DNA of 39,321 nucleotides from a virus. Shown one piece after another: positions 6,965 through 38,018 of the stretch. The stretch's first letter is position 1. Each line of letters starts with the position of its first letter. The notes under the pieces were generated by a model that worked only from the letters and a program-made list of their open reading frames with translations, was not told the origin of the DNA and did not search any database. Location of the stretch: positions 1 to 39,321 of IMG/VR virus record IMGVR_UViG_3300043411_000430; one strand, written 5' to 3'. The position numbers and the translations under genes are program-made.

Positions 6965-8413
6965 TTAAATTCTAGGGTCCATCCAACCCTGTGTAATGAT
7001 GCCAATTCGATCCAGTGCGCCGGACGTGCCAATACGACTTCTCACCTGCGCAGAGGTGTTTGTCCAAACGTCAACCGGGTTGAAATTCCAAGACGTTCCG
7101 GTGTCACATCCGTGAAAGTTTGCTTGTCCGGTTAGTGACGCGGTGTTGAATACCTGTGGCGCAAGATCGGTTTGGTCAAGGCTAGATACATATCCGGCTA
7201 CAGAGCCTGTCGTGCCTGAATAAATGCCGCAGTTCACACGCGCCCGAAGCTTTACACCTGTTGGCAGCGTCAGAGTACGAGTAACGGCAGACGTGCCGGG
7301 GTTTTGCGCGGCAACGTCAACAACCGGAGCCGTCCATTCAAAGTAGTTACCGTATTGCGTGAACGCTTTAATTGCTCCGCCAGTTCTTACGATCGAGCCA
7401 ATACACTTCTTCTTCGTATACGCTGCGTTCAGAGTTGGATCTGACGCGGAGGTGCTAAACGTTACGTCTGATACATCGGTGTCAGGTCGTTTAATTGCCC
7501 ATACGTGGTATGTGGTATTCGCAATCGCGCCTGTATCCAATCCGCCTTGGTTTGTACCAACAGCCCATGCGGCATCAAGACGCTTGGTGATAGCAGACAA
7601 GCTGATAACTGTCGTGCCGTCATCAGACACACACGCACCCGCAGCGATATCGATATCGTTCGTTGCATCAGATACGTGGTTTGAAAGCGTCAGGCCGTAT
7701 AGAACGCGGTCTGAGTTAAATGATGCTGCGATATTATTATAAGCCCCAGCAGCACTAGATGCCCCTGTGCCGCCGTCTGCAAGAGCAAGGTCTGTTATCC
7801 CAGATATTGCCCCGCCTGTAATAGCTACAGAACTAGCAGTCTGAGTCGCCATCGTGCCAAGCTCAAGAACGGAGCGTGCGAGGGCTGGCGTTGCTGTTGC
7901 GGCCAAGTCTTCGCCAGTTGCTCCAAATGTTGTGCCGGTTGACGTAGCCCCAGCAGAAGCAGTTGGGTTTCCAAGAGAGTCAAAAGCAAGGAACATGTTT
8001 GCTCGATCTGCGACCAAGGGAAGCTCAATCGATGTCGTTGGGTCATCCTCGCGCAGCTTGAGACTTCTCACGCTTTCATCAGCAAGCTGCTGAGTCTGCA
8101 TAGCAAGCAAATCAAATTGCTTTTCTGTAACGTCCGAAGGATTACCGTCAAAGTTCTCAAAGTCAGTGTCCTGTGTGTACCCAACAACACGCCTGATCAG
8201 GATTGAAACATCAGCAGAAGGTGCAGGGGTAAACGTGACGGTGCCTCCGCTTTCTGACCCCGCCCCAGTAACAACATAACCAGAAGACTGCAACACACCA
8301 TCAAAATAGACTTTTATATGGTCTTCATCATAGAAGATGTAGGGAAAGGCAAAAGCAGTTGTGACGCCATTACCAGTATAATTCACCCTGTTTGTTGCTG
8401 ATGGGACAGTCAT
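6965..8413 (-). CDS. Tail fibre protein with T7 gp17-type N-terminal domain
   Basis: A 482-residue fibre. The first ~130 residues match the phage T7 tail-fibre N-terminal domain, which fixes fibres to the tail: N-Y-T-G-N-G-V-T-T-A-F-A-F-P-Y, F-D-G-V-L-Q, then R-R-V-V-G-Y-T-Q and a helical E-K-Q-F-D-L-L-A-M-Q. The middle is Ala/Gly/Thr-rich, suiting a trimeric shaft, and the C-terminal ~200 residues are a strand-rich tip. Its ATG overlaps the stop of the 114-residue gene (TAATG). The tip probably joins receptor recognition with the 355-residue protein downstream. Confidence 0.85.
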   Translation of the reverse strand: MTVPSATNRVNYTGNGVTTAFAFPYIFYDEDHIKVYFDGVLQSSGYVVTGAGSESGGTVTFTPAPSADVSILIRRVVGYTQDTDFENFDGNPSDVTEKQFDLLAMQTQQLADESVRSLKLREDDPTTSIELPLVADRANMFLAFDSLGNPTASAGATSTGTTFGATGEDLAATATPALARSVLELGTMATQTASSVAITGGAISGITDLALADGGTGASSAAGAYNNIAASFNSDRVLYGLTLSNHVSDATNDIDIAAGACVSDDGTTVISLSAITKRLDAAWAVGTNQGGLDTGAIANTTYHVWAIKRPDTDVSDVTFSTSASDPTLNAAYTKKKCIGSIVRTGGAIKAFTQYGNYFEWTAPVVDVAAQNPGTSAVTRTLTLPTGVKLRARVNCGIYSGTTGSVAGYVSSLDQTDLAPQVFNTASLTGQANFHGCDTGTSWNFNPVDVWTNTSAQVRSRIGTSGALDRIGIITQGWMDPRI

Positions 8414-34225: not shown

Positions 34226-34270
34226 TGATCGTGATAAATTATCATACTGATAATAGCTATGGAGGCTAAC

Positions 34271-34948
34271 ATGACGATTAAATACCATAACGACCTTATT
34301 CAAGGGTCGGACGAATGGCTTTCTGCTCGTTGCGGTCTGCTCACTGCCAGCGAAATGAAGCTGATACTGACACCAACGCTCAAGGTTGCGAATAATGAGA
34401 AAACCAGAGCGCATGTATATGAGATTGCGGCGCAGCGTATTAATAAATATGTTGAGCCAGCTTATGTCAACGACGACATGCTGCGCGGGATGTCTGACGA
34501 GCCGGTTGCAAGGGCTTTGTACGAGCAACACTATGACCTTGTGGACACATGCGGGTTCATTACCAGCGACGATCATGGCTGCACGATAGGCTACTCACCT
34601 GATGGTCTTGTCGGAGATGATGGCCTGATCGAGATTAAATCTCGCAGACAGAAGGCTCAGTTGGAAACGATTGCGACTGATATAGTGCCGGATGAATATA
34701 TGATGCAGCTTCAAACGGGGCTGATTATCACCGGGCGCGAGTGGATCGACTTTATATCCTATTGCGGCGGGATGCCAATGTATGTGAAGCGCGTATATCC
34801 TGACGATGAGATACAGGCAGCTATTAAAGAAGCGGCGGAATCATTCGAGAGCAAGGTGCAGAAGGTTATAGGCCAGTATAGCAATGTGGTGGCTGGATTG
34901 AAAGTGAAAACAACCCAAAGAACAACACAAGAGGAGAGCTACTTATGA
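34271..34948 (+). CDS. YqaJ-type viral recombinase exonuclease
   Basis: A 225-residue exonuclease of the lambda-exonuclease fold. Key residues: G-S-D-E-W-L-S-A-R-C-G-L-L-T-A-S-E near the N-terminus, S-P-D-G (D111), and I-E-I-K (E121, K123), the metal-dependent core. It would resect double-strand ends to give 3' single strands. The start is ATG 34271, five bases after GGAGG; an earlier in-frame ATG (34259) lies before that site. It overlaps the 195-residue partner gene by ATGA. Confidence 0.9.
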   Translation: MTIKYHNDLIQGSDEWLSARCGLLTASEMKLILTPTLKVANNEKTRAHVYEIAAQRINKYVEPAYVNDDMLRGMSDEPVARALYEQHYDLVDTCGFITSDDHGCTIGYSPDGLVGDDGLIEIKSRRQKAQLETIATDIVPDEYMMQLQTGLIITGREWIDFISYCGGMPMYVKRVYPDDEIQAAIKEAAESFESKVQKVIGQYSNVVAGLKVKTTQRTTQEESYL

Positions 34949-35532
34949 TTGACGATATGGCCCCGGTGCTTGCCCCTAAAAGCGACCAATGGAACGCTGA
35001 TGATTTTCTTGTCGGTCCTCGGACCGTTACTATTCGTGATACTAAAATCACTGGCGAAAAAGGCTCAGAAAAGCTAGAGGTTTTTTTTCACGGCGACGAA
35101 GGCAAGCCGTGGAGAGCAAGCAAGAGTATGGCGAGACTTCTTTATGCAGTATGGGGTAGTAGAAACAATTACATTGGAAAGTCGTTGACTTTGTTTTGTG
35201 ACCCATCCGTAACATTTGGCAACGAAACCCCCGGAGGAATAAGGGTTTCTCACATGAGCGATATTGGTCAATCTAGGACGGTACAACTAACAAAGACACG
35301 GGGGAAAAAGAAGCCATACACAGTGCAACCCTTGACTGTTGCGGCGGAGCGTGGGCTTGACGACCTTAAATCTGGGGCCAATCAGGCTGCATCTAATGGA
35401 TCAGGCGCACTCACAGCATGGTGGGGAACACTGACGCCGAATGAGAAGAAAGTAATTAAGCCGCACATGGACGATTACAAAACCTTGGCGGCGACTAAAG
35501 ACCAACCAACTGAATCACTGATAGGAGAGTAG
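34945..35532 (+). CDS. Conserved phage protein paired with exonuclease (195 aa)
   Basis: Residues about 50-110 have W-R-A-S-K-S-M-A-R-L-L-Y-A-V-W-G followed by Y-I-G-K-S-L-T-L-F-C-D-P-S-V and G-G-I-R-V-S-H-M-S-D-I. I know this arrangement from many phages, where it lies next to the exonuclease, but its function is not established; a single-strand annealing or exonuclease-partner role fits the location. The C-terminal third is helical and acidic-basic mixed. ATGA overlap with the exonuclease gene means the two are made together. Confidence 0.75.
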   Translation: MIDDMAPVLAPKSDQWNADDFLVGPRTVTIRDTKITGEKGSEKLEVFFHGDEGKPWRASKSMARLLYAVWGSRNNYIGKSLTLFCDPSVTFGNETPGGIRVSHMSDIGQSRTVQLTKTRGKKKPYTVQPLTVAAERGLDDLKSGANQAASNGSGALTAWWGTLTPNEKKVIKPHMDDYKTLAATKDQPTESLIGE

Positions 35533-36300: not shown

Positions 36301-36618
36301 ATGACATTCATCGACAATTACATCATCGAAAAAGACCGCGAGGCTGCAATGGCAAAGGCGTTTTTTTGTATCGAGTACAAAGGCAAGTCGTATGACGAAA
36401 AGGGTAACACGCCAGAAGAGGCTGTTGAATGGTTTGAAGCCGATATGGATGACAGGCTGGCAGAAGACGGCGAGTATGGCCCGTGGTCTGCGGATATTAT
36501 CATCACAGGTATAAACGAAGACGGTAACGAGATTTACCGCCGTGAACATACGGCTAGAGGATACGTGGAGCGCGATGAATACGATCACGGGTTCTGGGAT
36601 TATTATACAAGCAGATAG
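36301..36618 (+). CDS. Hypothetical acidic protein (105 aa)
   Basis: The start ATG 36301 follows AAAGGA by six bases; an earlier in-frame ATG (36259) sits in a hairpin loop without a ribosome site. The protein is acidic: E-K-D-R-E-A-A-M-A-K helix, then I-E-Y-K-G-K-S-Y-D-E-K-G-N-T-P-E-E-A-V-E-W-F, then a C-terminal acidic and aromatic part. The T-P-E-E-A helix is a recurring small-domain motif in phages. First gene after the operator-like promoter; followed by the LRR-like gene with 9 bases between. Confidence 0.65.
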   Translation: MTFIDNYIIEKDREAAMAKAFFCIEYKGKSYDEKGNTPEEAVEWFEADMDDRLAEDGEYGPWSADIIITGINEDGNEIYRREHTARGYVERDEYDHGFWDYYTSR

Positions 36619-36627
36619 GAGAGAGAA

Positions 36628-37671
36628 ATGAAAATAGCGACAGATTTTAAAATCATAAAAGGCAAAATTCAGCTTTTTGATGAAGACGGAAACAAGATTC
36701 CGGGTAAGGGTACGAGATGGGAGGGCAACTTCTCCTGCTACAACAACAAGCTCACCAGCCTTGAGGGTGCGCCGGAGAGTGTCGGTGGCAACTTCTCCTG
36801 CTCCGACAACAAGCTCACCAGCCTTGAGGGTGCGCCGGAGAGTGTCGGTGGCAGCTTCTACTGCTCCGACAACAAGCTCACCAGCCTTGAGGGTGCGCCG
36901 GAGAGTGTCGGTGGCAGCTTCTACTGCTCCCACAACAAGCTCACCAGCCTTGAGGGTGCGCCGGAGAGTGTCGGTGGCAGCTTCTCCTGCTACAACAACA
37001 AGCTCACCAGCCTTGAGGGTGCGCCGGAGAGTGTCGGTGGCGACTTCTCCTGCTCCCACAACAAGCTCACCAGCCTTGAGGGTGCGCCGGAGAGTGTCGG
37101 TGGCAGCTTCTACTGCTCCCACAACAAGCTCACCAGCCTTGAGGGTGCGCCGGAGAGTGTCGGTGGCAACTTCTCCTGCTACAACAACAAGCTCACCAGC
37201 CTTGAGGGTGCGCCGAAAGAACGACAAGTTATGTTCTCGGTGTTTCTCAAAGCGGGGTTTATTTTTGCAGACGGTATTTTAACGCGCAAAAAATCGCAGC
37301 GTAAAATAAGCGCCGAAATCACGCTCTATAAAATAGAAAAGCTTGGTTATAAAAACAACGCGCCGATTGTTTACGTTATTAAATCTGGCGAATTATTCGC
37401 GCATGGCGATACACCGCAGCAAGCTCGTGAAGCGTTATTATTCAAAACCGCAGATCGTGATGTATCAGCATACCGGAACATGCCGATGAATACAGTTAAA
37501 ACGCCGATGGAATGGGCTGTCGTTTATCACATCGTATCCGGTGCATGTGAGGCCGGATGCAAGATGTTTATGTCACGCCAGACGCTGAAAGACAAATATA
37601 CGCTTGCCGAGATTATCGAAGCGACAAAAGGTCAGTATGGTCATGATAGATTTGTTGAGGTGGTGAGATGA
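36628..37671 (+). CDS. Leucine-rich-repeat-like protein with eight 21-residue repeats
   Basis: A 347-residue protein. After a 32-residue N-cap (I-K-G-K-I-Q-L-F-D-E-D-G-N) come eight repeats of 21 residues with the core G-x-F-x-C-x-x-N-K-L-T-S-L-E-G-A-P. F, C and L take the buried Leu positions of the LRR motif L-x-L-x-x-N-x-L; the four variable x lie on the exposed beta-strand face. A 150-residue C-terminal domain follows (A-G-F-I-F-A-D-G ... F-V-E-V-V-R). LRR-type folds usually bind proteins. GGAGAG precedes the ATG. The other frames and the opposite strand are also open over the array because the repeat is a multiple of 3; codon use and ribosome sites favour this frame. Confidence 0.85.
   Translation: MKIATDFKIIKGKIQLFDEDGNKIPGKGTRWEGNFSCYNNKLTSLEGAPESVGGNFSCSDNKLTSLEGAPESVGGSFYCSDNKLTSLEGAPESVGGSFYCSHNKLTSLEGAPESVGGSFSCYNNKLTSLEGAPESVGGDFSCSHNKLTSLEGAPESVGGSFYCSHNKLTSLEGAPESVGGNFSCYNNKLTSLEGAPKERQVMFSVFLKAGFIFADGILTRKKSQRKISAEITLYKIEKLGYKNNAPIVYVIKSGELFAHGDTPQQAREALLFKTADRDVSAYRNMPMNTVKTPMEWAVVYHIVSGACEAGCKMFMSRQTLKDKYTLAEIIEATKGQYGHDRFVEVVR
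36724..37215 (+). repeat. Tandem array of 63-bp repeats (7.8 copies)
   Basis: Eight units of 63 bp. They are identical except at five nucleotides within codons 2, 4, 6 and 7 of each unit, and all differences change the amino acid. Residues at those codons by repeat: N-S-Y-N, N-S-S-D, S-Y-S-D, S-Y-S-H, S-S-Y-N, D-S-S-H, S-Y-S-H, N-S-Y-N. Confidence 0.95.
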
Positions 37672-38018
37672 CAGCACTAACCGAGCTTAAAAAGCTGGCA
37701 GAGTTGCAGGGGAAGGCGACTGAGGGGCCTTGGATGGCCGGGGTATTCCAAGACACCGGATTTATAAACCAACGCAGCATAACTCCTGTCATCGGATGTG
37801 TTTACGGCGATGAAAGCGACACTGACGCTAACGCGGAATACATAGCCGCATCCCGCAACATCGACCTCCCCGCACTGGTGGCGTATGTGGAGGGGTTGGA
37901 ATGGTCGCTGCATTATCTAATCGAACGTGCAGACGACAGTAATGATGCAAGGTATGGCACTTTATCGGCTGGTTTTGTTCGTGATGTATGCAGTAAAGCA
38001 CTGGAGGGTACGGAATGA
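37668..38018 (+). CDS. Ead/Ea22-like protein (116 aa)
   Basis: The pattern A-T-E-G-P-W near residue 20 and D-A-N-A-E-Y-I-A-A-S-R-N ... L-P-A-L-V at about residues 53-70 match the Ead/Ea22 group, frequent in lambdoid and podoviral accessory regions. Such proteins have no proven function. ATGA overlaps on both sides (37668 and 38015) place it in the LRR operon. Confidence 0.7.
   Translation: MTALTELKKLAELQGKATEGPWMAGVFQDTGFINQRSITPVIGCVYGDESDTDANAEYIAASRNIDLPALVAYVEGLEWSLHYLIERADDSNDARYGTLSAGFVRDVCSKALEGTE

Follow-up and report, generated by a model that had tools for sequence, protein, structure and literature searches.

The virus record IMGVR_UViG_3300043411_000430, which was analyzed over its whole length of 39,321 bases (the window; the record is possibly incomplete), carries a gene for a 347-residue protein (P0001) in which a leucine-rich repeat (LRR) solenoid precedes a conserved C-terminal domain (Table 1). 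The start of this gene is preceded by AGGAGAGAG at about 36617-36625. Its tandem array (Tandem Repeats Finder score 872) lies where an earlier reading of the DNA made from the letters alone (henceforth the sequence-only reading) had placed eight 63-bp units, but comprises seven such units and a partial eighth of 51 bp, which still holds every variable codon. Alignment of the units confirmed the rest of that description: they vary solely at bases 4, 5, 11, 17 and 19, which fall in codons 2 (N/S/D), 4 (S/Y), 6 (Y/S) and 7 (N/D/H), and each variant is nonsynonymous, with 0 synonymous differences. The confinement of five variable sites to 4 of 21 codons is improbable by chance (P = 1.1e-4, calculated post hoc). 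Since 0 of 5 synonymous sites against an expected fraction of 0.258 gives P of about 0.22, the lack of synonymous differences in the window is weak evidence alone and becomes strong only once relatives are added. No second copy of the repeat unit was found elsewhere in this record, and an exact DNA search for the repeat core across viral contigs returned nothing.

The array matches the Pfam LRR_4 model (42.5 bits versus a cutoff of 27) with units of 21 residues; by this match, unit length and modelled fold the protein belongs to the LRR proteins, which are defined by tandem LxxLxLxxN-type units of 20-29 residues that form a curved solenoid. A single-sequence AlphaFold2 model of this part reaches a predicted local distance difference test score (pLDDT) of about 90 or more for the greater part of residues 1-160 and places a short strand at the F-x pair of every unit; it is matched best by the LRR domains of four bacterial proteins, YopM, internalin, IpaH and SspH (Z 13-15; YopM, Z 15.3). 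Each strand alternates the variable residues with Phe and Cys that point inward; from this alternation and from LRR geometry, rather than from the coordinates of the model, they are predicted to point outward on the concave side. The model, the fold matches and the strand alternation are thus all consistent with the exposed concave placement proposed in the sequence-only reading.

Relatives were drawn by profile searches of viral contigs and contigs of bacterial metagenome-assembled genomes (MAGs) with the C-terminal domain, for which a five-row profile was productive; a single-sequence scan of genome contigs found nothing, and a 67-row profile was too diverged for searching. The resulting family comprises 163 open reading frames (ORFs), 125 of them distinct, from phage and MAG sequences. 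The domain is nearly always preceded by a homogenised repeat array: among 75 complete ORFs, 68 place two repeats or more in front of it, and most of the others 1 to 1.5 LRR units. The arrays are of at least seven types with units of 4 to 23 residues, including LPDNLTVGG and PEGFNPTVGG LRRs, VGG-type repeats, BspA-type LRRs, SSGDYAKVA 9-mers, VARGNSHV and CTFDTGSY 8-mers, and GYGD 4-mers. A tree of 116 domains requires at least 13 switches of repeat kind, although six would be enough; therefore, the modules have been exchanged. The kinds also cluster on this tree, and the G[YSD]G[YSD] repeats (L064, L066, L120, L123, L124, L127 and L133) form one clade. A further locus, L054 (PP511318.1), belongs to Dulem virus 31, which is filed under Microviridae, yet its 35.8-kb record holds 76 annotated features; this classification looks wrong.

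The model of the C-terminal domain is uncertain from a single sequence and reaches the confidence given in Table 1 with a 67-row alignment. Searches of Pfam, NCBIfam and PDB sequences returned no match to the domain, and those of PHROGs matched just two of its members, both to a single family without function. Foldseek against the PDB gave no match at E <= 0.001, and a second fold search peaked at Z 5.3, over part of the domain only. A HicB-like fold, guessed from a motif, received no support from these fold searches, which fall short of refuting it. Five viral proteins in BFVD match the domain, all unnamed or auto-named; the names "Lamprin" and "E3 ubiquitin-protein ligase" found there, like the record name "ribonuclease inhibitor", are probably repeat-derived and were not used. 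No description of the family was found in open-licence PMC papers, and it appears undescribed in Pfam, NCBIfam, the PDB and the open-licence literature, a scope that leaves UniProt, InterPro and subscription literature outside. Six residues are invariant in 116 of 116 domains, namely the Asp, His, Lys and Cys listed in Table 1 together with Gly305 and Gly310. The Asp, His, Lys and Cys among these hint at enzymatic activity. Asp215 is in none of the peptide patterns used for fetching loci, and the Cys motif is kept in 81 of 81 domains that lack the second pattern in its exact form.

The selection on the arrays is apparent across this family. In 70 distinct arrays, 376 variable sites are nonsynonymous (N) and 88 synonymous (S), with 134.6 of the latter expected (P = 5e-7), and the short-period arrays by themselves have 96 N and 6 S (28.9 S expected; P = 1e-8). 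In 40 LRR-like arrays, the four codons for the concave beta-strand positions (x codons) have 159 N and 12 S sites over 160 codons versus 61 N and 56 S over the 643 other codons (odds ratio 12, P = 9e-16). Per codon, this amounts to 0.99 nonsynonymous sites at x and 0.095 elsewhere, and to 0.075 and 0.087 synonymous ones; the similarity of the synonymous rates indicates that the x codons keep amino-acid changes rather than experience faster silent mutation. Relative to neutral expectation, N/S is 3.5-4.9 at the x codons and 0.44-0.54 elsewhere, over transition biases of 1 to 4. Many synonymous changes in relatives, which the sequence-only reading had named as evidence that would count against it, were sought: synonymous variation at the x codons is at background, and nonsynonymous variation is ten times background. 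Diversifying selection at the positions that it had assigned to a binding face is accordingly replicated over 40 LRR-like arrays. Paralogous arrays of the window's LRR subtype that lack the C-terminal domain behave alike, with 74% nonsynonymous and 6% synonymous among x codon pairs and 23% of each among pairs of other codons.

Repeat proteins generally tolerate substitutions at exposed positions, and the units are young and homogenised, so one might instead posit recent tandem amplification with relaxed constraint: any polar residue would do at the exposed positions, which would drift neutrally, and the remainder of the unit would be conserved. However, under neutral drift 36-46 of the 171 variable sites at the x codons should be synonymous, whereas 12 are (P = 6e-7 to 3e-11). 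Further, the amino-acid changes are mostly transversions (230 versus 113 transitions), and the palette is narrow, centered on Ser, Tyr and Asp (alleles at variable x codons: Ser 65, Tyr 58, Asp 49, Arg 27, Gly 23, Asn 17), with Tyr constituting 18% of variable alleles against 0.5% of invariant ones across all arrays. Given the excess of N over S at the x codons, we consider relaxed constraint unlikely.

The arrays also turn over between close relatives in the number, order and make-up of their units, as anticipated by the suggestion of the sequence-only reading that the array could expand or shuffle by recombination. L093 and L101 are 99% identical in their domain DNA but have 20 and 12 units, respectively, which differ in order and in backbone codons, and the array of L104 is different again from both. 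L097 and L103 are 99.9% identical over the 3152 bp up to the array and 81.6% beyond it, with arrays of about one and four units. The recurrence of the same palettes on backbones with different third bases (L088, L093) is consistent with arrays that are regenerated repeatedly under selection. The ORF extends past the 5' end of its locus in 50 of 125 distinct cases; breakage of assemblies within the array would produce this, for which the repeats alone could be a sufficient cause. Between L004, L005 and L006 the units of one gene differ. In these loci and in L003, seven or eight paralogous LRR genes are clustered head to tail (L003, 1046-8882; L004, 2580-8070; L005 and L006 likewise), which are of the window's LRR subtype, lack the C-terminal domain, share a common N-terminal segment and differ in units between sister contigs.

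Phage-borne diversification of a binding surface is known from the diversity-generating retroelements (PMC4891356, PMC5006420), and the A allele is present at all five variable sites of the window, as would result if such an element or a similar adenine-directed mutagenesis wrote the variable codons. Against this, the allele pairs of the family (G/T 100, A/C 83, A/G 67) are not an adenine-directed spectrum, the commonest pair being without A, and Cys and Phe, which random mutation of TAC would yield, are seldom seen in relatives. No RVT_1 match was obtained at E <= 10 in the possibly incomplete record; only 3 of 32 virus records tested have a reverse transcriptase, and no template copy was found, either in the regions flanking these three genes or in the rest of the window. 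We therefore regard targeted mutagenesis as very improbable. Reverse-transcriptase genes are located several kb from the SSGDYAKVA arrays in the records of L088, L093 and L101 (G003, G004 and G005).

Variable phage surfaces classically sit on tail proteins, and the LRR protein could accordingly be a virion receptor-binding protein or adhesin tracking changes of the host surface. Yet its gene lies on the plus strand in a cluster with primase, helicase, resolvase, YqaJ/RecE-like exonuclease and small genes, whereas the T7-like tail, adaptor and tail-fibre genes, together with the head and terminase genes, are elsewhere, on the minus strand. The domain genes of relatives likewise adjoin early genes (RecT, RecE, helicases, primase, DNA methyltransferases), and no PHROGs tail family covers the C-terminal domain. 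Due to this location, we deem a tail role improbable. Of the adjustable phage-encoded binding protein that the sequence-only reading envisaged, the variable surface is supported across the family, and, judging from gene order, a receptor-binding role is unlikely for a gene outside the tail module. On the minus strand, 6965-8413 codes for a 482-residue protein with a T7-type tail-fibre N-terminal region; its remainder, which is without a family match, may be the true receptor-binding part. Directly after the exonuclease gene, a phrog_11517 protein (34945-35532, plus strand) without a Pfam match is, by position, a candidate single-strand annealing protein. Only scattered weak matches were returned by PADLOC, and no plasmid match was found.

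Table 1. Features of the LRR gene and its flanks in the window
Feature	Positions	Strand	Remarks
YqaJ/RecE-like viral recombination exonuclease	34259..34948	+	upstream of the LRR gene, same cluster
Gene for P0001, 347-residue solenoid and C-terminal-domain protein	36628..37671	+	ORF
N-terminal cap, residues 1-32	36628..36723	+	model; strands run into the LRR; pLDDT 89 or more
LRR array, 7 full 63-bp units and a 51-bp eighth	36724..37215	+	
Conserved C-terminal domain, residues 197-347	37216..37668	+	model pLDDT 93
Invariant Asp215	37270..37272	+	116/116 domains
Invariant His259, FAHGDT motif	37402..37404	+	116/116 domains
Invariant Lys273	37444..37446	+	116/116 domains
Invariant Cys307, SGAC..G motif	37546..37548	+	116/116 domains; start of predicted helix
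Gene after the LRR gene	37668..38018	+	overlaps the stop of the LRR gene by ATGA

The transcription activator-like (TAL) effectors, in which one or two variable codons in near-identical tandem units define specificity, offer another parallel: the confined variable codons of the phage arrays, located among DNA-metabolism genes, would also suit a solenoid that reads nucleic acid, one unit per base, with a C-terminal domain acting on DNA or RNA. In this family, however, the scaffold is swapped for unrelated repeat types of 4-23 residues, a freedom difficult to reconcile with a code that reads bases; moreover, the LRR model matches protein-binding LRRs, and the palette favors Tyr, Ser and Asp over Arg and Lys. 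With a different fold, several variable positions and interchangeable scaffolds, the phage proteins depart from TAL effectors in ways that leave this a poor prospect.

Closer likenesses are to protein-binding systems. In the lamprey variable lymphocyte receptors (VLRs), modules of an LRR scaffold recombine and variation falls on the x positions of the concave beta-strands. The resemblance noted in the sequence-only reading holds for this manner of variation and not for ancestry: the phage record shows no somatic assembly and no donor cassettes, its LRR is of the 21-residue bacterial type and is fused to an unrelated C-terminal domain, and other family members use other repeat folds. IpaH and SspH, which share the LRR fold with YopM, join a variable LRR to a C-terminal domain that is conserved and has one key cysteine, an arrangement that the phage protein recalls; in contrast to these effectors, its gene is beside replication and recombination genes, and the NEL ligase domain of IpaH/SspH was detected neither by Pfam nor by Foldseek against the PDB at E <= 0.001, though such absence is not proof. 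Hypervariable, nearly identical tandem repeats also occur in the prophage-linked hyvI/hyvII proteins of Liberibacter, which are described as autotransporters (PMC3708911); it is by this description, not by sequence, that they are set apart from the phage family.

Taken together, we favor, at a probability of about 0.6, a phage protein, probably early, that pairs a diversifying recognition solenoid with a conserved, perhaps catalytic, C-terminal domain. Several points weigh against this. Arrays were counted as independent though some are related, and array turnover is known from relatives rather than from this phage itself, for which no close relative was found (best terminase match, 55%). Since the locus-fetching patterns include the HG and TGAC motifs and one further pattern includes the Lys273 motif, conservation at these motifs is inflated and partly biased; the invariant residues could also be structural instead. 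As for the sequence-only reading, it stands in part, having missed the invariant C-terminal domain and its joining to unrelated repeat types.

On the favored reading, the LRR solenoid would act as a recognition surface, with concave residues, mainly Ser, Tyr, Asp, Asn and His, under diversifying selection. Recombination between near-identical units would expand, shrink and re-sort the array, thereby supplying unit variants, probably with the help of phage recombination enzymes that are often encoded nearby (YqaJ/RecE-like, RecT/ERF); in the window, the YqaJ/RecE-like exonuclease is a possible driver. Selection would then retain variants with new surfaces, and the conserved C-terminal domain would act on the partner held by the solenoid, the likeliest targets being diverse proteins of the host, for example in its defence, or factors that rival phages encode. 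More tentatively, we envisage a widespread class of re-toolable phage enzymes, in which an invariant catalytic domain is combined with a solenoid of one or another of at least seven kinds, and recombination and selection renew the exposed residues of the solenoid out of a small, antibody-loop-like palette of Ser, Tyr and Asp. Such a class would be the counterpart of a binder library inside the infected cell, catching and modifying changing host or rival proteins.

These observations point to a recognition surface that is changed without a retroelement, on several unrelated repeat scaffolds, in a family that is missing from the domain libraries searched. Should the C-terminal domain prove to be an enzyme, the protein would constitute a naturally occurring targeting system, and its repeats could reveal its specificity. 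The family suggests that phages keep re-tooling this protein to grip new partners, and it makes testable the long-standing question of how phages match fast-changing intracellular proteins of their hosts or rivals.
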